Part shown: positions 6,525-32,407 of the stretch, piece after piece
How positions within the stretch are numbered: the first letter of the stretch is position 1
Layout: every line of letters starts with the position of its first letter
DNA from: Martensiomyces pterosporus
Lineage: Eukaryota; Kickxellomycota; Kickxellomycetes; Kickxellales; Kickxellaceae
DNA length: 32,734 bases
Assembly: GCA_025201845.1 (NCBI GenBank)
Contig: MU604071.1
Location: 1 to 32,734, forward strand
Reading direction: 5' to 3'
Position numbers and translations under genes: made by a program
Notes under the pieces: model-generated
What the model was told of the DNA's origin: nothing
The model's input: only the letters and a program-made list of their open reading frames with translations
The model's database searches: none

Positions 6525-9247
6525 GGACCTCGCGGGTGTTTGACGTGTTTGGGCTGTCGAGATTTGCACGGAGAGCACTGTTCAGCATCGACTTCATCCA
6601 GCTCTCGGGTGGCCTCTCCACGCTCTCCGCAGCTAGTAGCGAGTCTGTGTCCACGCTAGTCTTGTACATGGCGCTGGCATATGTCTTGCTTCGTGAGTCG
6701 CTGGCATCGGCGAGCGGCAATGCTGAGGATACAGCGAAGCCTCGCCGTATGAGTGTTGTCAAGATCGAAGAAGAGGATAGCAGAATGTTTGCTCGCGTGA
6801 GCGCAGCGGCGAAGGCCATCGAGGACGTGCTGTCTGATCTGCTGAGCCTCGCTGTGGTCTACGGATCCTCTCTCCCACGCTCCAACAAATCTGCTGAGGA
6901 TGGTCCTTCGGATGATGGCGACGAAAGTGGAGCGGAGATCAGGGTTCCCAGCGACCCAGGGCGCTGGCTCAACACGCTGACCAACTCGATCCTTGAAGCG
7001 AACAGCACTGATCGCGTTGGCATTGAGCAGCGCGAGGGCGGGCCTATTTGGGAGCAGGCGATTGCCTTTTGCATCGCGTGCCACAAGGAAAACGCAGCCT
7101 CGCCATGGGCTCTAGTGCTGGGCACTTTGACCGAGTGGTGCCAGTGGGCAGATCCAGTGGGTTCGGCTGACATTGAGGCGGCTGTGGCAGTGCCCATGTC
7201 AAAGAGTCTGCCAGCGATCGTCAACTCTACGCCATTGGTTGAGCTGATGACCGCGGTTGTTCGCGCTGCTTCTCTCCGCCATGAGTGCTCGCAGTCGCCA
7301 GCACTGCGCGGCACCATGCTTGACCTCGTTGGGTATCTCGGAAAGGCCGTCGACAAGCTCAGCGGCACGCAAGGCGGGTCGCAGCCAGCTGCTATCCATC
7401 ACTTGGTTGCTGGGTTGGAGCTGCTGGGCGAGCTTTTGCCGCCCCAGCAAGGATCACTTGATGCGAATGCGTCGACTCCCAAGATTACGCGCACCCTGCT
7501 TGCGATTCCCGATGTCGCTTCGGATCGCGACGCAGCTGCCTCGTCGGCAACCTCGTTGCCGCTGACCCTGGCTGGCCTCTTGGTGCTACAGAGGTTTGCC
7601 GACTGTGCGCCGGTTATGGATGACGCCAGTGCCGTTGGACTTGCAAGGCTCTGCCTGAGGTGGCTAACCCTAGAGGTCGCTGACGATGTCGTTTCTAACG
7701 ATGCGCTGCTTGTAGCAGCATCCCGGGCTGTCAGCTCTCTTGCAAAAGCAACAAAGCGGCTGGTGAACGACTCACGGAGCGTCGCCGGGCCGCTGATGCG
7801 GCAGATAGGCGAGCGGCTGGTTGAGACCTGCGTCCTCTCTGAGCGCCCAATCCCCGAAGGCGTCTCTGCAGTGGCACAGCTTGTGAAGTGCGGCTACTTC
7901 AGCATGCCCAGCTTTACCAGTCTATTCCCTGTCCTTGCCAATGCCACGCCAATGCTCGACATTGAGCTGCTCCAGCTGGCCCTGGCATCCGGCGACGTCG
8001 TTGCTGATATTGGATCTAACGTCAGCGAGCTGGTCCGCCTTGTCATTCTGGCGGTGAAGGCGCTGGCCGATCTGGGCGTGCCCTACGAGGACTTTGGCGA
8101 GGCCGTGGAATCCGACGAGTACGTGCGCAGTGCCGCGGTGAAGGCGCTGGCCGATCTGGGCGTGCCCTACGAGGACTTTGGCGAGGCCGTGGAATCCGAC
8201 GAGTACGTGCGCAGTGCCAGCTTCCGGCTGCTCTCCAGCCTCCTTCTGGTTACTCGGTGTGCTGATGCCCTTGCGTCCGACGGTGAGAAGTACGAAGAGG
8301 TGACGGATGCGCTGAGCAGTAACCAGGTTCTGGACGGCGCTATGCCATGGGTGTGCGCACTGCTTGGCCTGGATAGTGGCCATAGCTCGTCAACGGCTGC
8401 CTATGATGCCAGGCTGTGGGATGCCTCAGCTGGGCTGGATTGGGAGACCTGGGGCGTCGAGATGGCACAGAACCCTGCGAGCGAGCACCTGTTCCGCGTC
8501 CTCGCTCACCATGTCATGTATGGCCTGGTGTGGACGTTCCCATCGACGTTCCGGTCTTGGTGGTCGGGTCTGTCGCAGGAGTTCCGGGGGACCAGCATTG
8601 CTATGGAGCAGTTCATGGCCAAGCATGTCAGTCCGACCGTTATCGAGCAGGAGATCAGGCGTATTCGTGAGCAGGGTGGCGAAGCAGCCGATGAGGGCAC
8701 TGTCGATGGCGAGGGAGGCGACGAGAACACAGATGCGGATGCGGATGCGGATGCAGAAGCGTGGGGTGTGCATGCCCACATGGAGAAACCCACGGCTGTC
8801 TCGCAGATCCTCGAGGAATACGACGATGCGACTGTAAAGGCTGCGTCGACGCAGGTGACTTTGACCTACACTGTTGACGACAGCACTTTGGAGATTGTCG
8901 TCCGTGTGCCTGCGACTTACCCGCTGGCGCTCCCGACATTCGAGTCTGTCAAGCGAGTCGCGGTGACTGAGAAGCGCTGGCGAGGCTGGCTTGTCGCTGC
9001 CCAGGCACAGATGTCGTGCAACAGGAGGCTGGACGCCGTTTGTGCGCAGCTGCTGGGCAATGTCGGAGCCCACTTTGCTGGTGTCGAGGACTGCTCGATC
9101 TGCTACTCTGCCGTGGGTGCTCTGGACAACACTCTGCCGACCAAGCAGTGCAAGACCTGCAAGCACAAGTTCCATCGCATGTGCCTGTTCAAGTGGTTCA
9201 GCACCAGCAACCAGAGCACTTGCCCGCTGTGCCGCAACCTGTTCTGA
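3378..9247 (+). CDS. LTN1: listerin, E3 ubiquitin ligase of the ribosome quality control complex
   Basis: Exons 3378-3436 and 3547-9247 (intron 3437-3546, GTAAGA donor, TAG acceptor) give 1919 aa. Exon 1 encodes MSGKGKQPRVKGNLKPTSS and exon 2 continues SRAADLLGGD, matching the conserved N-terminus of listerins (GGK-K-R-KGN-RPS-S-RAAELL). A very long HEAT/ARM helical region follows, then an RWD-like segment and a C-terminal RING-CH finger at about 1869-1919: CSIC, CKTC, HKFHRMC and CPLC, ending CRNLF as in the family. Listerin binds stalled 60S subunits with the Rqc2/NEMF and Rqc1 partners and ubiquitinates the trapped nascent chain on the ribosome. Length is near the human protein (about 1770 aa) and longer than yeast Ltn1 (about 1560). 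Low-complexity inserts are present: poly-Ala from a GCA repeat (about 6490-6525) and an Asp-Ala repeat (about 8731-8758). A perfect 84-bp in-frame tandem duplication at 8051-8218 repeats 28 residues. Identity is very secure. Confidence 0.97.
8051..8218 (+). repeat. perfect 84-bp tandem duplication inside LTN1
   Basis: Copy 1 is 8051-8134 and copy 2 is 8135-8218; they are identical at every base by eye. The unit is in frame and repeats AVKALADLGVPYEDFG... (28 residues, about 1522-1577 of the protein). One copy alone leaves a smooth helical reading (…SDEYVRSASFRLLSSLLL), so the second copy looks added. No synonymous change separates the copies, implying either a very recent event or an assembly error. 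Confidence 0.95.
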
Positions 9248-18576: not shown

Positions 18577-20043
18577 TTATCCACTTGCATATGTGCTTAT
18601 GGAAAGTCCCAGCACTGCGTCGATGTCGCCGGCATCCAGGGTCGTTGTTTGTGGCCCTTCGCCGTTGGCTGTCGCGGTTGGACCAGTTGGTTGTGCGTTC
18701 CTGTTTGCGGGGCTGTTCGAGTCCTGGTTATGGCCGAGGTTCAGCATGCCCATTATGTTGGCGACGTTGATGCTTCCTAGGTTGGGCAAGCTAATGTGGT
18801 TGAGGTCAGGGAGCGGGAGCTTGGCGATATCGTCGAACGTGATGCCAGCACGGCTCATGATCTCCTCGATGTAGGTGAACTTTGTCAGACTGGCTGGGTT
18901 GAGAGGCGGGATGGTTATGCTGGGCAGCGGGATGCCCGTGACCGCTATGCCGTCAAGGGTCACATCTGGGAGATGCACAGAGGCAAGATCCATTGCTGGA
19001 AGGTCGATGTTAGGCAGGGGGAAGGGAAGCGAGATGCCGTTGTTGAGAACCATTTCCACGCCGTTGGAGATCATTGCGCCTGTGAGCCCGCTGCCGTGGG
19101 CACCCTCGGGAGTCGGTGCTGGGCTGCTGAGGCTGGAGCTGGCTTCTTCCCCACTGCTGGTTGCTGAGGCGGCTGCGGTCTCGTCTGATGCTGAGGTGCT
19201 GGCACCAGTATCAGAAAATAGCCCACCAAACAAGCCACCGGCTGAAGATGCTGAAGAAGAGCCTGTTTCTGTGCTCGACTCCATGCCCATGCCCATGCCC
19301 ATGCCCTCGCTTGATGAGCTGCTGCTGCTGCTAGTTCTGTCTGGGAAGAGTGGCGGGAGGTTGTCAAACAGTCCGTGCCGCGAGCTAGATGACGATGTGC
19401 CCTCCGATGCACCCGACTCGCTAGCGGGTGTAGTGGATGTCGCAGGTGTGCCTGATGCTGAACCCTCAGCTGAGCTGAACTCGCTTATCAACGATGATGG
19501 CAGTGCACTAGTATCCGGCAGCAATGAGGTGCTAGACAGCGTGGCAGGCGAGGTGGGGTTGGCAGCAGCGCTTGGCACATTTGGCTTGCTTCCGTTTGCC
19601 TGGCTCTTCCATCCACAGAACATGTTTTGGCCGGGGTTCTTTACGCAGGCAGTTCCTGGCGGGCATGCAAAATGGACAAATGTGCCCGATAGGCATCGCA
19701 GGAAGTAATCGTACTGGCCATTGGCACCAGGACACACATACTCATCGAATGGCGACGCGTAGCTGCACTGAGCTCCTGCAGTTAGAGAGCTATTCTCTGG
19801 GGCCAGCTGGTTGGCGGTGCTGACCGGGAATCCGCACAAAATCGAGCTGCCCTGAGTATAGCATACAGTGCCTGGCGCACAGGACTTTTGCACCTCGACT
19901 CCCCCAACATCGCACTGGTAGAATACCGAACCTTGGCCGCTGGCAGAGGCGCATCTGTATGACCCAGCGACGCATGAATCGCCAGCCACAGCGGCTGCCA
20001 GGCAGGACACAAGCGATGAGACTGATACCCAGTGTTTCATCAT
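18577..20043 (-). CDS. secreted protein with two CBM19-like chitin-binding modules and a Ser/Thr-rich stalk
   Basis: 488 aa from the tandem ATGs at 20043/20040. Numbering from the Met at 20040: signal peptide 1-19/20 (MKHWVSVSSLVSCLAAAVAG); module 1, about 21-70, with Cys 23, 30, 43, 54, 60, 69; module 2, about 90-143, with Cys 92, 103, 116, 126, 132, 142. Each has the CBM19 shape (C…C…C.(S/G)…C.PGT.C……CG). These modules bind chitin and are fungal. From about 150 to 320 the protein is Ser/Thr/Gly-rich with Ser runs and an (MG)4 repeat from an ATGCCC repeat (minus-strand view, 19285-19311), likely an O-glycosylated stalk. The C-terminal 150 residues are Leu/Pro-periodic (LPFPLPNIDLPAMDL, IPLPSITIPPL) with no family I recognise. 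I see no catalytic domain and no clear GPI signal, so a cell-wall or effector-like binding role is only inferred. The frame stays open to 20268, but that extension lacks a signal peptide. Confidence 0.85.
   Translation of the reverse strand: MMKHWVSVSSLVSCLAAAVAGDSCVAGSYRCASASGQGSVFYQCDVGGVEVQKSCAPGTVCYTQGSSILCGFPVSTANQLAPENSSLTAGAQCSYASPFDEYVCPGANGQYDYFLRCLSGTFVHFACPPGTACVKNPGQNMFCGWKSQANGSKPNVPSAAANPTSPATLSSTSLLPDTSALPSSLISEFSSAEGSASGTPATSTTPASESGASEGTSSSSSRHGLFDNLPPLFPDRTSSSSSSSSEGMGMGMGMESSTETGSSSASSAGGLFGGLFSDTGASTSASDETAAASATSSGEEASSSLSSPAPTPEGAHGSGLTGAMISNGVEMVLNNGISLPFPLPNIDLPAMDLASVHLPDVTLDGIAVTGIPLPSITIPPLNPASLTKFTYIEEIMSRAGITFDDIAKLPLPDLNHISLPNLGSINVANIMGMLNLGHNQDSNSPANRNAQPTGPTATANGEGPQTTTLDAGDIDAVLGLSISTYASG
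19285..19311. repeat. CCCATG hexanucleotide microsatellite within the CBM19-protein gene
   Basis: About four and a half perfect copies of CCCATG (+ strand) encode the alternating Met-Gly run in the stalk of the secreted protein. Being in frame and of 6-nt period, length change would alter the protein without shifting frame. Confidence 0.85.
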
Positions 20044-21123
20044 TTGCCAATATGCGGATATGTGTGCTGTTTCTTGTAGGTGAGAGGAATGGCGTGCTGG
20101 ACAAAAACAAAGAGACAAGAGCCGTGCTGTGCACTCCTCCTTCCACGCCCAGCTGTCTCGTCTCCACCTAGCCAGGTGTGTGGCATTAGTGCACATGCAG
20201 TAAGCCCGGGATTCTGCTATCTCAGCTGCTGACTTGGCACAGCCATTATGTGGAAGCTGCAGTGTCATGCAGCGACATCTCTTGCCGTGCTACCTCGCTG
20301 CATGCAGGCGTCGGCCACTTTGCGGTATAGCCATATGAATCTATAATTTCACACCACCGTAACCACTAATATATCGACATGCTGTGCTGCTGACCCCTTG
20401 CACTCGCAAGAGCAGTCACGCTCGAGCCCAAATGCGCATGGCTCGGCTGGGGGCTGCGAGCCAGAGAAAGGCCGAACCATCACGTGCATACCCGCCAGCT
20501 TCCTGTTTTGACAAGCCATTGGGGACAAAAGCCGGGGATGAGCGCAAGTCCGGGTGGTCAGGAGCTTGAAAACCTCCGGTCGAGCCAGGCGGGGGATCGC
20601 GCCTTCGGGGTTCAAGGGGCGTGCCCAGCACCTCCAGTCTCTGCCTTCTGCCCAGCCGCTGCTCCTGCAGCCTCCTTGCTGTGTGACGGCTTCTCTTCAA
20701 AAGGCCAGCACTGGCCCTTGCTTTTCAGCTGGGCGTGAGGCAGGTCAATCGTCACATGCGAGGAAACAGGCCCGCATTTGCTCCGGCTGACGGGGGCACG
20801 CACTAAATACCATTTGACCCGCCGTCCCTTCGCAGCTGTTTATTAGCCACCCGCGTTTCCGCCGAGCTCGCCCTTCCACAGCTTTCTCTTTTTCTCCTAC
20901 ATGTTTATTTCCTTTGTTCCTTTCCTCTTCCTTGTACTGCCTTTTCTGTTGTGCTTTCTCATCCTCAGTTCCAACGCCTGTGCTGCTGCTCTCTTTTAGG
21001 CGGAGATACGCTGTCTGTATTCTATCGAGCAATTCGCCCTTTTGTTATCTCGCGTCTCCTCGACCTCAATCCCATTCTCTCCACAGACTTACTCGTTAGG
21101 GCCAGAGTAGCATCAGATCACCC
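20044..21123. other. divergent intergenic region between the CBM19 gene and ANT1-like gene
   Basis: 1080 bp between two divergent starts. The 250 bp before 21124 are strongly pyrimidine-rich (CTTTCTCTTTTTCTCC at about 20883), as in a promoter/5' leader on the + strand. Short overlapping frames at 20349-20800 on both strands have no recognisable domain. I see no RNA gene. Confidence 0.4.
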
Positions 21124-22621: not shown

Positions 22622-23677
22622 CTATCTAGCACGGCTGCTGAGTTCTGATGCGACCTTCAACCTGATAGCGTCCACATCTGCTCTGCCGCTGCCTGCTGCA
22701 ACCCATGTGCACTGTGCTGTCAGGGCATCTGCGGCAATCCCATGCACCCGTAGCCCAAGCTGCGCTGCCTCGTCGATGTTCAAGACAAATACAGATCCGA
22801 CTCCAACCCCATCCGCTGGAGGCACCGCGAACAACTCGCGCATAGACCTCACATCCACGCTAATTGCATCGACACCCGGGACCTCGTCCAGCTGCTCCAG
22901 TTCTTTGACACCAGCCGCACTGACAAAGCGACAACCGACCAAGTTCAGCAAACGGATGCCAAATCTTTGAGTCACCACCAGCGACTTTCCCGTCCCTGGG
23001 CTGACAAACTCCACAGAAATCTGGCTGCTGAGCTGCTCCAACGCGTCTATCCCGAGGGCAACTTGAGCAGCAGCTTCAGCACCGCTAGCCAACACGGTTG
23101 GCGTAGACTCTGCAAACGGCGAGTCGTCTTTGCACCTTTGCTCGTCCAGCGTCTTCGCCACGTCACTGAACACGAGCTGACCTCGTCCGCTGCCTGCTGT
23201 TTGAGCACGAGTGCCACTGTTGCTCTGTGGCACTGCATTGAGAGATAGGTTGACCGGGCAAGCCAGTGGTGATACAGGTGCAAAGTGAAGCTTGACCGCC
23301 ATGTCAACCAGCGGAATAGGCGACCGATTTCTGACTTTTATATCTAGCACTGTCTGATACCTGGGTGAGCCGCTCTCTTCTTGTTCTAGCGGGCATGCTA
23401 TGACGCTGATCTGTAGAGCGCGCTTGACGAGTTCCTCCATCATCATGTTCATGGACATGGTCATTTGCGCCGCTTGCTGCATGTTGCTAATGAGCGCACC
23501 CTGCATAGCCTGCAGCGATGCCCCGATATTCTGTGCTGTGTCTGACAAGCCCTGGGCGATTCCAGCTGGCCCACTCGGCTCCTGGATATAGTCTGCGCTC
23601 TGTGCGTGCTTTTGTTGCTCCTCTTCACGGGACTGGTCCGAGTTTTGTAGTGCCATGTCTCTGTTGTCTATTACCAT
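22622..23677 (-). CDS. orphan protein, 351 aa, unknown function
   Basis: A complete frame of 351 aa (or 344 from the second ATG at 23656). I do not recognise a family. Residues 1-50 are Gln/Ser/Glu-rich; about 50-85 is Met-rich and probably helical (MQQAAQMTMSMNMMMEELVK). From about 85 the sequence alternates like beta strands: YQTVLDIKVRNRSPIPLVDM, and later SSQISVEFVSPGTGKSLVV with QRFGIRLLNLVGCRF. The last 130 residues mix strands and helices. The NRSPIPL and VSPGTGK segments look like conserved loops of a beta-sandwich, but that is a reading, not a match. No signal peptide or membrane segment. Smooth composition and length strongly suggest a real gene. Divergent from ARL2, sharing about 250 bp. 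Confidence 0.75.
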   Translation of the reverse strand: MVIDNRDMALQNSDQSREEEQQKHAQSADYIQEPSGPAGIAQGLSDTAQNIGASLQAMQGALISNMQQAAQMTMSMNMMMEELVKRALQISVIACPLEQEESGSPRYQTVLDIKVRNRSPIPLVDMAVKLHFAPVSPLACPVNLSLNAVPQSNSGTRAQTAGSGRGQLVFSDVAKTLDEQRCKDDSPFAESTPTVLASGAEAAAQVALGIDALEQLSSQISVEFVSPGTGKSLVVTQRFGIRLLNLVGCRFVSAAGVKELEQLDEVPGVDAISVDVRSMRELFAVPPADGVGVGSVFVLNIDEAAQLGLRVHGIAADALTAQCTWVAAGSGRADVDAIRLKVASELSSRAR

Positions 23678-24683: not shown

Positions 24684-27122
24684 TTAGAACAGCTTGGCTT
24701 CAAACAGCGTGTATCTGTCATCATCGGCTGCGCTTAGATCGGACAAGGAGCCGTCCATGTCAATGGCTCCGACTACTGCATCGTCCGTATCTGGCGCAAA
24801 GCGAGGGTCGATAAGCGCAGGCGTCTTTGTGAGCAGCTTTACTCTGCGCTTGGGAGCTACTGCAAACAATCCGCCGCAGCTAGCTGACTGTACACTAGTG
24901 GCAATTGTGTACCGTGCAGGATCGAACCCATCAGCAATCGCCAGCACAAACTCTTGCACTTCGGTAGAATACATGGGCAAATAGGTGGTGATTTTTAGGC
25001 GGTCCTCGTAAGCAGGCACCATGTCAGAGCCATGCCACCTCCCAGTATCGGCAACGCTGGCGCCGTGGCCTGCTTCTCCAGTGCCAGCACCACTTTCTTT
25101 GTCCCTGCCGCTGACTCTGCTGTCTTCATTGCTCTCTTCGTCCTCTTCGTCGTCAATCCTGGCCAGTGCTGGAGCAAAGTGGTCCAGGAGCGACGCGATG
25201 ACCTGGCATGCAAAGTGGCGCGGCATCCCCGGCACACCCTGTTGGACGAGCGACCACACCTCCAAAACTCTAAGCAGCAGCCGGAACCTTTGAATCAACT
25301 TTGCCGGCTCCACAGCCATATCCACAAACGGCTCCAGCTGCTTGGGCGTTGCCAGCTGTCCATTGACAAAGTAGAACCAAAAGTCCGAGCGCAGCTTGTG
25401 CAATCCCACATGCACAAGAGCATCCAGTGGCTGGTCGTCGATCCACGCATCCAGCTGTCCAGCCAGCCTCTCGCTCTCGCCTTCCTCATCGATCAGCGTC
25501 TTCTGCTGTGCCATCTGCAGGGCATCCCGGATAAGCTGGGCCAAGGGCGACTGGTTGCTGTGGTGTATATATGGCTGAAGCTTGCGCGTCTCCAATCCCT
25601 CGGCTACGGCTGTGATGAGCTCCGACAGATCGCTATCATCGTGGGCATAGTGCGAGATGTTCCACAGACGCTCGGTAAAATCGAGGTCTTCGCGAATGGA
25701 GAGCCCAGCTACACTGTGTATATCCTTTGTACGGCCCAGCCGTCCCAGCGCAGTGCTTCCGCGAGTGTCGTAGATAGAAGCCTCGATAAACTCGTCAATT
25801 TTCTTGCCAAACGCCTCACGATGCTCTAGCAGCCTTTGCGATCCTGGCTTCTGCTCTCTTGCTTGTAGCTGTCCGTCTACCATGCAGCTGTCTCCTGTCA
25901 TGCCTTCTTCGCTGGCAGCATCCGTTTTTGCCGTATCGTCGTTGCTTGGCACAGCGAGAGGGTCGCCATACATGCGCCTACTATCGTCTGGCTTTTGCCA
26001 CGGGTGGATGCTGAATTCGTACTCATCTGCGTCGGCTTTACTTCCTGGCTCCACCCACTTTGACCCCAACGTCCAGCACTCGCACCATGTCTCTAGACGC
26101 TTGATTTCCATATACAGCGACCTGAGCGATGAAGCAGCCTCGGGGTCAAGCGGGAGCGGCGTGCTCACCAGCTCAAGCACCCACTGTGCAGACGACGACG
26201 GGGCTGGTGGCAGCTCCACAGCATATGCGCCCCCGTCTTTTGCCTCAGAGCTCCAAATTCCCTTCAGGACAACAAACGACGTGGATGCAGGCAAAAGAAG
26301 TGACGAGATGGATTCTGGACCAGTGTCCGCGTCTATGCCAGCCTCAGTGCCGCTGTCTGGCTTTAAAAGATCGGGCTGCAAACCACCCAACGCATTGTCA
26401 GGGTGCAGCGGTGACCCCAAGAGATCATACTCGACCCAGTGCTGCAGCTTCTGCACCGCACTTCTGTCGGCGCTGCCTACCTCCATTCCAGGCGCGCTCT
26501 CGTATACGTGCACCGGCTCTGCAGCTGCATGCGTTCCGCTGTGCTTGAGCGCAACGACATTGGCGAACTCGTATGGGCTGCTGGGACTAAAAACGGCCAA
26601 ATAAAACGACGGGATGGGGGTCGCCAACTCATCGATCTCCCTAGTGAAAACGAGCATAGGAAGCGCCGCGTCGTTCTCCTCCGCCCTAAATGCTGGTAGG
26701 ATCTGCGCGTACTGCGTGGTCAGAACTCTGGCCTTGTTCCTCTCCAAGGGCTCAAGTCCGTGCCCACTACCCCACTCGTACGCATACTGAGAGACTGCTG
26801 TTATACTTTCGTCAGCTGTGGCTAGCGAGGACCAGCTTGTCAGCGGATCCGCTCCACAGGTAACTGCCGCCGAGCGCTGCAGCGTTAGCTTAAAGCCGCC
26901 CGAATTGGCTGGCGTGTATGCTGTGATCAGTATGAATGGCGTGGAGAGCCCCAGGATGCTGCGCAGTGGGTGGTTGACATGCGGAGGAATGAGCCAGAGG
27001 AGTGCTGTTTTGGCAAACACAAACGGCGTCAGGGTGCTGTCAGTGCTGAGTGTGAGCTGCGCCTTTACTGCTGCATTCTCAACAAAAGTGCTGAGCAGCG
27101 CCTTTGTTAGCTGAATCGTCAT
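24684..27122 (-). CDS. Zwilch-like kinetochore protein (RZZ complex subunit)
   Basis: 812 aa from the ATG at 27122 (the frame is open further to 27245, but that region is not protein-like). The core, about residues 350-640, follows animal Zwilch segment by segment: SLYMEIKRLETWCECWTLG and KWVEP; IREDLDFTERLW (476-487); LQPYIHHSNQSPLAQLI; GLHKLRSDFWFYFVNGQLA (from 573); LEPFVDMAVEPAKLIQRFR then LLLRVLEVW. Human Zwilch has the parallel run DLDFAEQLW, QPWLHSGSNSLLSKLI, GLDKLKKDY…F, YR.QKLHHILEIL. The N-terminal half with FTREID and FYLAVFSP fits the family beta region. Zwilch joins Rod and ZW10 at unattached kinetochores, recruiting dynein-Spindly and the checkpoint proteins Mad1-Mad2. The protein is longer than the human one (591 aa) owing to Ser/Asp-rich inserts at about 400-450 and an acidic loop at about 660-700. 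Identification rests on motif reading from memory; the family is thought to be missing from yeasts. Confidence 0.82.
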   Translation of the reverse strand: MTIQLTKALLSTFVENAAVKAQLTLSTDSTLTPFVFAKTALLWLIPPHVNHPLRSILGLSTPFILITAYTPANSGGFKLTLQRSAAVTCGADPLTSWSSLATADESITAVSQYAYEWGSGHGLEPLERNKARVLTTQYAQILPAFRAEENDAALPMLVFTREIDELATPIPSFYLAVFSPSSPYEFANVVALKHSGTHAAAEPVHVYESAPGMEVGSADRSAVQKLQHWVEYDLLGSPLHPDNALGGLQPDLLKPDSGTEAGIDADTGPESISSLLLPASTSFVVLKGIWSSEAKDGGAYAVELPPAPSSSAQWVLELVSTPLPLDPEAASSLRSLYMEIKRLETWCECWTLGSKWVEPGSKADADEYEFSIHPWQKPDDSRRMYGDPLAVPSNDDTAKTDAASEEGMTGDSCMVDGQLQAREQKPGSQRLLEHREAFGKKIDEFIEASIYDTRGSTALGRLGRTKDIHSVAGLSIREDLDFTERLWNISHYAHDDSDLSELITAVAEGLETRKLQPYIHHSNQSPLAQLIRDALQMAQQKTLIDEEGESERLAGQLDAWIDDQPLDALVHVGLHKLRSDFWFYFVNGQLATPKQLEPFVDMAVEPAKLIQRFRLLLRVLEVWSLVQQGVPGMPRHFACQVIASLLDHFAPALARIDDEEDEESNEDSRVSGRDKESGAGTGEAGHGASVADTGRWHGSDMVPAYEDRLKITTYLPMYSTEVQEFVLAIADGFDPARYTIATSVQSASCGGLFAVAPKRRVKLLTKTPALIDPRFAPDTDDAVVGAIDMDGSLSDLSAADDDRYTLFEAKLF

Positions 27123-28465: not shown

Positions 28466-28585
28466 TGCAATAACAAGAACCCCCCCCCCGAGACCTCTAG
28501 CAGGGCTTGAGATGCGCGTTGTCTTATGCAATAACAAGAACCCCCCCCCCGAGACCTCTAGCAGGGCTTGAGATGCGCGTTGTCT
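28466..28585. repeat. 59-bp perfect direct duplication containing poly-C tracts
   Basis: Copies 28466-28524 and 28527-28585 are identical over 59 bp and separated by TA (61-bp period). Each contains a run of 10 C (28480-28489; 28541-28550). The bases just before each copy (TCTCG versus TCTTA) share the TCT, so the duplication may extend imperfectly. It lies in non-coding DNA. Confidence 0.95.
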
Positions 28586-29581
28586 GGACTGAAAAAGCGG
28601 GCAGGTGTTGGGGGAAGTGTAGGGGAGGCTGGCCAAGTGGTCCCTTCCCCATCAGCAGGCTCTGAGCAGCACAGATAGGCACTAACTGGCCTTACCCCGC
28701 TTTAGCTTGTGCTACAGGAAAACAGAAGAACAATACCGACTGGTGTGCTGAGGCCGCCGCTGATCAGGGGTGCTGCTGTTACCCGATGTGACCGAGCATG
28801 GAGCAGCAGCGCTCAGATACAAGCCTTGTCCGCTCAGCAGAAGCAACAAACTGCGAGCCCCATGGCCTACGCGACAGCAGTAGCATCAACAGCAGCGAAG
28901 GATATGACAAGCAGGTAGAGGTGGGGTTGGGAACCAACCAGGCAAAGAGGAGGGGGTGGGTGCACTTACCCCCCGGTGTCCGGCTCTCCCCCTTCCCAAT
29001 CAATTACCGCTTATGCCATTAATAATGCCTGATGCCTATTACTGCCACGCGGCTGGTATAACAAAGGGCTGGCGAGAACGCTGCTCATTTAATGAAGAAC
29101 CAGCCGTTCCGCAATATCCCACGCTTCCAGCTTTCTCCTCTGCTCTCTTACACTTCCTACTTTTTTCTACTCGCTGAATGCCTTGTACACACTAAGCTGC
29201 TGCTTTGCTGAAGCTCTGGACACCTAGCAAACAACCCCTTGACACCGATTCTGGTCAAAGCACAAACCCAAGCTCTGGCCCGCACACACTCAATACTATT
29301 CCTCACACTTGGCAATTGGTAGGTACTCTTGCTTCTAGGATAACGGTGAGCCTCCTGTGTGCACACGCCTCTTCGCTTCCTCTTCTTGCTCGTTACTTGC
29401 TGGGGATCAGCCTCTTTCCACCACCGTGGTTTGCCTCGCTTTGCTTGTCCAGTCCTTGGTTTATCCCTCCATATCGCAGCTCCACAGCACAGGTCTTTGC
29501 GTGCGCGTGTTGGCTGAACTGCTGCCACAGCGTCAATGCTGGCTGACTGGCTGGCTGGCAGGCAACCTGGTTTCTTCGCAA

Positions 29582-29738
29582 CCCGCCTCAAAGGGTGGAA
29601 TCGCCGTTGCTAGCGCCATTCCTGTGCATCTCCACAATTTCTCTCTGTCACAAAAAAAAACCCGCCTCAAAGGGTGGAATCGCCGTTGCTAGCGCCATTC
29701 CTGTGCATCTCCACAATTTCTCTCTGTCACAAAAAAAA
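29582..29738. repeat. 79-bp direct tandem duplication upstream of the acyl-CoA synthetase gene
   Basis: Copy 1 is 29582-29660 and copy 2 is 29661-29738. The sequences are identical except for the length of the terminal A-run (9 A in copy 1, 8 in copy 2). Each copy begins CCCGCCTCAAAGGG and ends in CTCTCTGTCACA plus the A-run. The second copy ends about 140 bp before the acyl-CoA synthetase ATG, so it lies in promoter or 5' leader DNA. Confidence 0.95.
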
Positions 29739-29879: not shown

Positions 29880-32407
29880 ATGGCAACGTCTTGCTCAATT
29901 GAAGTTCCCGGCGCACCCGCTGTTCCTGGCGAGACAAAGGTAAGCCTTTATGTCTGCTTCGGGCTGTCAAGGCGCTTCTCGCGTGGCTGCTTGCTGGCCT
30001 CGTGACCCAGCCCTGCTGCCGCCCTCCTCTCCTTCCAGAATGTCTTTTCGCTGCTTACCAAACAATGGGCGAGGTGTGCGTTCAGCAGACCTGGCCGTGC
30101 ATAAGCAATTCATTTTCTCTGGCAAGAGCAGAAAAGAAGCGACTTTGCGCTGTTACACCTCATTGTTGTTTTTGGCAGTGCAAATCGCTCGTGCCGATCC
30201 ATTCCCTGTACGGCAAGGTCACTTGCTGTCTTTGGAAAGCGAACAGGTGCGGGGGGACAGCACACAGACCTCATCACGATTGGCAAGGTCACTTGCTGTC
30301 TTTGGAAAGCGAACAGGTGCGGGGGGACAGCACACAGACCTCATCACGATTGCCGCCCCCCACCACGCCAGACAGCCATGGGAACAATGTCGCTCAGCAG
30401 GCAGCACCCAGACTGATGTGCCGATTCCCAGACAACAATCTCTCCTTGTACTTGTAGCCTCGCATTGCTGCCACGCGCGCAGATGGCACTATCACGGCAA
30501 ACATGGAGGGCATCAACAACTGCCATGACAACTTTTTGCTCGGAATGAAGACTGCTGGCGAAAACAGCGACTACCTTGGGTACAGACCGCTTGGCCCCGA
30601 TGGCCAGCCCGGTCCCTACAAATGGCTCAGCTGGAAGCAGGTCAAGAAGACTGCTACTGAAATCGGATCTGGACTCGCAAAGCTCGGCGTAAAACCCCAG
30701 GAGTGCTTTGGTATATTCTCCCCCAACCGCATCGAGTGGTCATATGTCGAGCACGCCTCTTACATATACAACCAGGTTACTGTGCCGATGTACGACACAC
30801 TTGGCGTTGAGGCAATCAAGCACATGGCTGTGGAGACTGAAATGACTCTGATTGCTGCTGCCCCTGAGAAGCTCACCACCATTTTTGAGCTGTGGGCTGA
30901 TCTCCCTCACGTCAAAACCGTCGTTGTGTTTGGCGAGATCCCCGAGAGCGCAAAGGAGTCGCTCAGCTCTATCCCCGAGGGCTCTCAGCTCATCACATTG
31001 GACGATATGATCGAGCTTGGCAAGAAGGACGGCCTGGCACCTCTCCCCGAAACCCCTGCGCAGCCTGATGATATCTGCACCATCTGCTACACCTCGGGAA
31101 CCACCGGCACGCCCAAGGGCGTCGTTCTCACGCACATGTGCTTCCTCTCGACTGCTCATTCAGCCATGCAGAGGATGGCTCTCGGCTACATCCCGCACCT
31201 CGACCAAAGGGACACACACCTGTCGATCCTGCCCCTTGCCCATTGTCTGGAGCGCTGCCTGCACGCTGTTCTCACTGGCTTTGGCTGCCGCATTGGCTTC
31301 AACCAGGGCAACATCCGCAAGATCTTGGACGATATCACTGAGCTGAAGCCATCGATCCTGGTCGGCGTTCCGCGGATTTTCAACCGCATCCACGATCAGG
31401 TCTGGGCCCAGGTAAGGGCCAAGGGCGGAGTCGCTAGCACGCTGTTCAACCACGCTTACGCGACAAAGAAGGAGAACCTGAAGTCGGGAACCAACAGGCA
31501 CTGGCTGTGGGATCGCCTGGTGTTCAAGACTGTTCGCCAGAAGTTTGGTGGCAACATTCGCCTTATCATCTCGGGCTCGGCGCCCATCTCCACCGATGTG
31601 CTTGACTTTTTGCGCATTGCCTTCTCCACAGCTGTGTTTGAGGGCTATGGGCTGACCGAGACCACAGGCCCTACTGGAATCACAGTGCCCAGCGATATGC
31701 GCGCTGGAAACGTTGGGTGCACGCTTGGAAACTGCCTCTACAAGCTGATCAGCGTGCCAGAGATGGAGTACACCGTTGAGGACAAGCCATTCCCCCGTGG
31801 CGAGGTGTGCGCCAAGGGCAACAATGTCTTCCGCGAGTACTACAAGCGGCCGGATCTCACAGCCGAGGCTATGGACGCTGACGGGTGGCTGCGCACGGGA
31901 GACATCGGCCAGTTCGATGAGCGCGGAAACCTGGTGATCATTGATCGCAAAAAGAACATGTTCAAGCTTGCGCAAGGCGAATATGTTGCTCCTGAGCGCA
32001 TCGAGAACGTGTTCACTGACTGCCCGCTCATTGAGCAGGCCTACATCCATGGCGACTCGCTACAGAGCCAGCTCGTTGCTGTTGTCGTCCCCAGCGAGGA
32101 GTTTTTGCGCCACGAGATCGCAGACAACGACGCCCTGTCTCATCTGGCCGGCTGCGACTTTAAGCAGATTTGCCAGGACAAGGCGGTTGCCAAGCACATG
32201 CTCAAGGTCGTCGATGGCTGGGGCCGGAAGAACGACCTGAAGGGCTACGAGATCCCCAAGAATCTCTACCTGGAAACGGAGCCATTCTCGATCGAGAACA
32301 ACATCTTCACACCCACGTTCAAGATCAAGCGTCCGCAAGCCAAGAAGCACTACCAGGAAACCCTGGACCGTCTCTACACTGAGCTCAACGCGTCAAACAA
32401 GGCATAA
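29880..32407 (+). CDS. long-chain acyl-CoA synthetase (fatty-acid--CoA ligase)
   Basis: Exons 29880-29939 and 30458-32407 (intron 29940-30457, GTAAGC donor, TAG acceptor after CTTGTACTTG, phase 0) give 669 aa. Exon 1 encodes MATSCSIEVPGAPAVPGETK and exon 2 resumes PRIAATRADGTITANMEGIN, restoring the N-terminus of eukaryotic long-chain synthetases (VEVPG…GETKPRR). ATP/AMP motif YTSGTTGTPKGVVLTH is at about 231-246, YGLTETTGP at about 417, GWLRTGDIG at about 496, and DRKKNMFKLAQGEYVAPERI at about 514-534, the fatty-acyl-CoA-synthetase signature. It converts fatty acid, ATP and CoA to acyl-CoA, AMP and PPi for lipid synthesis or beta-oxidation. The C-terminus ASNKA is not a PTS1, and there is no clear signal peptide or PTS2, so compartment is open. 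The intron contains a perfect 70-bp tandem duplication. Tail-to-tail with the edge gene (84 bp). Confidence 0.95.
30212..30351. repeat. 70-bp perfect tandem duplication in the acyl-CoA synthetase intron
   Basis: Copies 30212-30281 and 30282-30351 are identical at every base and directly adjacent. Each begins GGCAAGGTCACTTGC and ends CATCACGATT, with a run of 6 G inside. The repeat lies wholly within the 518-bp first intron, so it should not alter the protein. Confidence 0.95.

Follow-up and report, generated by a model that had tools for sequence, protein, structure and literature searches.

The window analysed here is the whole stretch of 32,734 nucleotides from the fungus Martensiomyces pterosporus (Kickxellales, outside Dikarya; contig MU604071.1, positions 1 to 32,734 of the forward strand). 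On its minus strand it carries a gene for a protein of 812 residues, which an earlier note, made from the sequence alone, had taken for Zwilch. As the evidence below shows, the gene at 24684-27122 is the orthologue of Zwilch in Kickxellales; Zwilch is the third subunit in the Rod-Zwilch-ZW10 (RZZ) complex. The features of the gene and the grounds on which each was placed are as follows.

24684..27122, minus strand: Zwilch gene, 812 aa, a single open frame for which an intron is unnecessary (frame, Pfam match, alignment)
25227..25736, minus strand: conserved core, residues 463-632, containing the Pfam Zwilch match at 464-600 and four motifs quoted in the earlier note (alignment, Pfam)
25398..25412, minus strand: residues 571-575, HVGLH, equivalent to EIGLD at 422-426 of human Zwilch (alignment, row counts)
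26283..26405, minus strand: variable acidic insert 1, residues 240-280, pLDDT mostly <50 (alignment, model)
25851..26051, minus strand: variable acidic insert 2, residues 358-424 (alignment, model)
25005..25139, minus strand: variable acidic insert 3, residues 662-706 (alignment, model)

The Zwilch gene and its product

The minus-strand frame is open over 812 codons from the ATG through the stop, and 15 stops interrupt the plus strand across the same interval; the earlier note had named no strand. Both the N-terminus of the product (MTIQLTK, MSIQLTK and similar forms) and its C-terminus (FEAKLF and similar forms) agree with those of full-length relatives, and the gene model is therefore good. 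The gene is intact. The alignment comprised 32 rows, namely the protein itself and 31 relatives, several of them partial and none identical to it. Across these rows 40 columns are invariant, and over the core at residues 463-632 the mean identity to those 24 relatives that exceed 650 aa is 66%.

The identity of the protein was assessed by profile, sequence and structure comparison. The Pfam family Zwilch (PF09817) matched residues 464-600 with an E-value of 4.3e-13 and 49 bits, against a cut-off of 25, and was the sole Pfam family to match the 812-aa protein at E up to 1. The domain was found in 31 of 31 relatives, and all 32 aligned rows matched the family at E up to 10. A PDB search with the single protein, at E up to 1, returned human Zwilch chains alone (4.3e-9 and 8.5e-9), and a profile of the 32 sequences retrieved, at E up to 10, two Zwilch sequences and nothing else. 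Of the 86 residues aligned with 3if8 in the first printed block, 29 (34%) were identical to human Zwilch. The four motifs on which the earlier note had based its claim were all located: REDLDFTERLW at residues 477-487, QPYIHHSNQSPLAQLI at 516-531, GLHKLRSDF at 573-581 and LLRVLEVW at 616-623. A Foldseek comparison indicated that the predicted structure has the same fold as Zwilch. The profile search and the structure check proposed in that note both led to Zwilch, and the similarity lies far beyond chance. Chance likeness of a low-complexity frame was considered as well and is ruled out by the Pfam, PDB sequence and structure matches. A search of the organism's own genome (17.4 Mb, 216 contigs) with the Zwilch family gave one match, the locus described here.

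The protein is longer than human ZWILCH (591 residues; PDB 7qpg chain B, 3if8 chain B) and differs from it in having poorly conserved acidic stretches with low model confidence. These inserts, at residues 240-280, 358-424, 662-706 and 748-800, are real, and the confidence of the model within them is mostly low. They had been described as rich in serine and aspartate. The acidic part of that description stood, with Asp plus Glu at 15-24% compared with 14% in the whole protein, whereas the serine part did not, at 8-13% compared with 9%.

Partner proteins in the same genome

The earlier note had suggested that Rod/KNTC1 and ZW10 be looked for in the same genome, and homologues of both are present. 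Rod is encoded on contig C47 by a single intact frame of 2815 aa with five KNTC1/Rod Pfam domains above cut-off, among them the N-terminal region and Rod_C, and the Rod of the RZZ structure was matched at E 7e-51. ZW10 lies on contig C32 as an ATG frame of 694 aa, in which the middle, C and C2 domains exceed their cut-offs and which matched the ZW10 of the RZZ structure (7qpg_W) at E 2e-21; with an intron of 109 bases, the protein would be about 830 aa long. Mad1 (182 bits), a dynein heavy chain (440 bits) and a Sec39/NAG-type protein separate from Rod are encoded too. A further gene bears on the kinetochore.

L024:1069-8481 (genome G000, contig C15), plus strand: CENP-E-like kinesin, 2471 codons, ending in CVQQ before TAA (frame, motor ranking)

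The best PDB matches of its motor were two CENP-E motors, at 290 and 287 bits, with the next match at 254 bits; the CENP-E label is accordingly one of PDB ranking, not of a tree. The CAAX box of CENP-E is defined by a Cys at position -4 (PMC10630089), and the L024 frame has a Cys there. Among the longest frames of the kinesin regions, 1 of 12 ends in this way, a count of frames and not of verified proteins, since those of L025, L031 and L033 may miss the true gene end. As in animals, each of the three RZZ subunits has a gene here, and so do Mad1, the dynein heavy chain and a kinesin that resembles CENP-E and has a CAAX box.

Function and relation to Rab3GAP1

In animals, Zwilch binds the propeller of Rod and Rod carries ZW10; on unattached kinetochores the complex promotes checkpoint signalling and, via Spindly, recruits dynein (PMC10711656, PMC12429063, PMC4206994, PMC8832123). 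Martensiomyces Zwilch most likely folds as a mixed alpha/beta protein. By analogy with animals, it would most likely dock on the N-terminal beta-propeller of the genome-encoded Rod and, with Rod and ZW10, form an RZZ complex on unattached kinetochores, where it would most likely help to hold Mad1-Mad2 and bring in dynein. Because each of the three subunits has an open frame in this genome, the most economical reading is that the protein is a Zwilch orthologue within an RZZ complex that would act at unattached kinetochores, and we put its probability at roughly 0.82.

Several observations weigh against this reading, and the first concerns a surface patch. E422 and D426 of human Zwilch belong to a conserved patch; their double mutation blocks kinetochore expansion while Spindly recruitment persists, and in worm Zwilch the equivalent residues are required for the interaction with Spindly (PMC6224608). 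Pairwise alignment (human numbering) places His571 and His575 opposite this pair in a gapless block (PVQMLLEIGLDKLKKDY versus PLDALVHVGLHKLRSDF). Unlike in animal RZZ, the acidic pair is thus not retained: position 571 is non-acidic in 32 of 32 rows, and position 575 in all 31 rows that have a residue there. Around the replaced pair, G573, K576 and D580 are conserved in 31 of 31 rows. At residue 567 (human Q418), four positions ahead of 571, every one of the 32 rows as printed has Asp or Glu, and the acidic surface may therefore have moved by one helix turn, which would count against its full loss. Judged from the substitution, the surface that serves Spindly contact and corona expansion in animals is probably altered here, and RZZ may as a result expand little or use an alternative contact. 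Of the animal-type RZZ pathway that the earlier note supposed to be retained, Zwilch in a fungus, Rod and ZW10 stand, whereas animal-type function is putative.

The second point concerns Spindly, which the earlier note had also proposed to look for. An exact Spindly motif, whose letters may differ from the true ones, had no match in the organism's own genome. A looser pattern gave 2 matches compared with 4 in the reversed control, neither of them within a long coiled-coil frame, and a third gave 3 compared with 3, none within a plausible Spindly frame. Human Spindly residues 1-442, used as a query without a positive control, returned nothing at E up to 1. All of these are weak tests, and both the motif letters and this query are what we take to be those of Spindly. 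Finally, the Zw10_N model scored 16.8 bits on ZW10, below its cut-off of 26.3, and in some animals Rod and ZW10 act in membrane traffic as well (PMC4206994).

The strongest rival, which we consider improbable, is that the protein is Zwilch by descent but that its complex now acts mainly in membrane traffic, through Rab18 and tethering at the endoplasmic reticulum, and not at kinetochores. A Rab18 pull-down from fly cell lysates recovers Zw10, Rod, Zwilch and RINT1 (PMC4232348), which is ground for considering such a role, and Rod may substitute for NAG in flies, which are without it (PMC4206994). The replacement of the acidic pair and the failure to find Spindly, weak as those tests are, would also fit. 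However, Martensiomyces encodes a Sec39/NAG-type protein in addition to Rod, and Rod therefore need not replace NAG; the CAAX box of the CENP-E-like kinesin likewise favours the kinetochore. That the gene is a decaying relic, out of use, is very unlikely. Its large unconserved inserts would agree with decay, but the intronless open frame with its conserved ends, the invariant columns of the alignment, the many records of Coemansia and Linderina that hold a counterpart, the intact Rod frame and a ZW10 frame open across 783 codons all speak against it.

Least probable of all, and scarcely credible, is that the protein is not Zwilch proper but of Rab3GAP1 type or another relative of that fold. 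The genome encodes a separate Rab3GAP1 with a catalytic domain (186 bits).

L038:2305-6204 (genome G000, contig C65), minus strand: Rab3GAP1 gene, 1299 aa (Pfam catalytic domain)

Searched at E up to 10 with HMMER filters, Rab3-GTPase_cat (PF13890) was found in 0 of 32 Zwilch rows and the Zwilch family in 0 of 34 Rab3GAP1 rows, the latter comprising the organism's own protein and 33 of 47 relatives, with 14 redundant or truncated ones omitted. PDB profile searches with the two proteins do not cross-match, and Foldseek placed Rab3GAP1 (8vyb_A) at E 0.59 for the Zwilch model. Rab3GAP1 identity is refuted by these profile results, and Rab3GAP1 (PDB 8vyb chain A) differs from Zwilch in that no sequence or profile similarity between the two was found. 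Homology at the level of sequence was rejected as well, with a profile-profile probability of 0.4 for the single sequence and 0.1 for the 34-row alignment.

A deeper kinship is a tentative proposal, which we regard as possible but rather doubtful. Zwilch might be an ancient non-catalytic relative of Rab3GAP1, and RZZ might be built wholly from vesicle-tethering parts, with Rod from a NAG-like coat or tether protein, ZW10 shared with a tether and Zwilch from a Rab regulator of the Rab18 pathway. Kickxellales would then hold both relatives in one genome, and a fungal Zwilch without the acidic pair may show an RZZ lacking the animal corona contact. The accessible part of PMC4232348 contains no proposal of kinship between Zwilch and Rab3GAP.

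The closest relative of the organism's Rab3GAP1 among the matches listed is that of Dipsacomyces acuminosporus (Kickxellaceae, Kickxellales), at 68%, the others reaching at most 59%. The gene adjoins a frame that by eye resembles tRNA dimethylallyltransferase, and two relatives (P0041, P0067) are annotated as fusions with such a frame, probably through gene-model errors.

Neighbouring features, distribution and significance

Elsewhere in the window, four exact two-copy tandem duplications lie at 8051-8218, 28466-28585, 29580-29738 and 30212-30352, of 84, 61, 79 and 70 bases, respectively. The 84-base duplication is in frame within a listerin (Ltn1) gene. Sixteen further loci of this genome, which amount to 105,696 bases, together contain one such duplication. 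They are recent events or an assembly artefact, and none touches Zwilch. Two minus-strand frames, at 18577-20268 (563 aa, Ser-rich by eye) and 22622-23677 (351 aa), matched no Pfam family at E up to 1. Scans for tRNAs, Rfam families and bacterial promoters found nothing, a result with little bearing on Zwilch.

Relatives of the protein, each named "hypothetical protein", were found in Coemansia and Linderina at 41-54% identity by BLASTP and 45-57% in the alignment. Among the matches listed, the searches returned the protein itself and named Kickxellales alone, which may stem from their word-based candidate step and is not evidence of absence elsewhere. In viral contigs, 12 pattern matches gave 0 confirmed relatives. 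One relative, P0014 (Coemansia sp. RSA 1822), is annotated with an N-terminal Methyltransf_16 domain and is probably a merged gene model.

In 2006, Rod, Zwilch and CENP-E were stated to occur in no fungus examined, according to the portion of PMC1557759 available. The presence of RZZ in fungi is by now a known distribution, and our result fits earlier gene surveys (see also PMC5579357, in its accessible part). The evolutionary conclusion of the earlier note, that a fungal lineage retained RZZ, was therefore right in kind, though already drawn there. No publication treating Rod, Zwilch and Dikarya together was found in the literature covered, which leaves out most subscription journals.

Within Opisthokonta, the joint presence of Rod and Zwilch has been reported to correlate with that of flagella and centrioles (Schmitt 2010, cited in PMC4206994). 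Coemansia reversa has, according to the part of PMC6070874 available, neither flagella nor a centriole, and its spindle pole body contains a nine-microtubule ring, perhaps a degenerate centriole. Given that this species carries a Zwilch relative (P0017), Kickxellales provide a test of the correlation. The present analysis contributes the replacement of the acidic pair and, on a more speculative level, the likeness to Rab3GAP1. With a Zwilch that is without the acidic corona pair, Kickxellales represent a natural experiment on which functions of RZZ need expansion and Spindly contact, and to this experiment the Martensiomyces genome adds Rod, ZW10 and the CAAX box of CENP-E.
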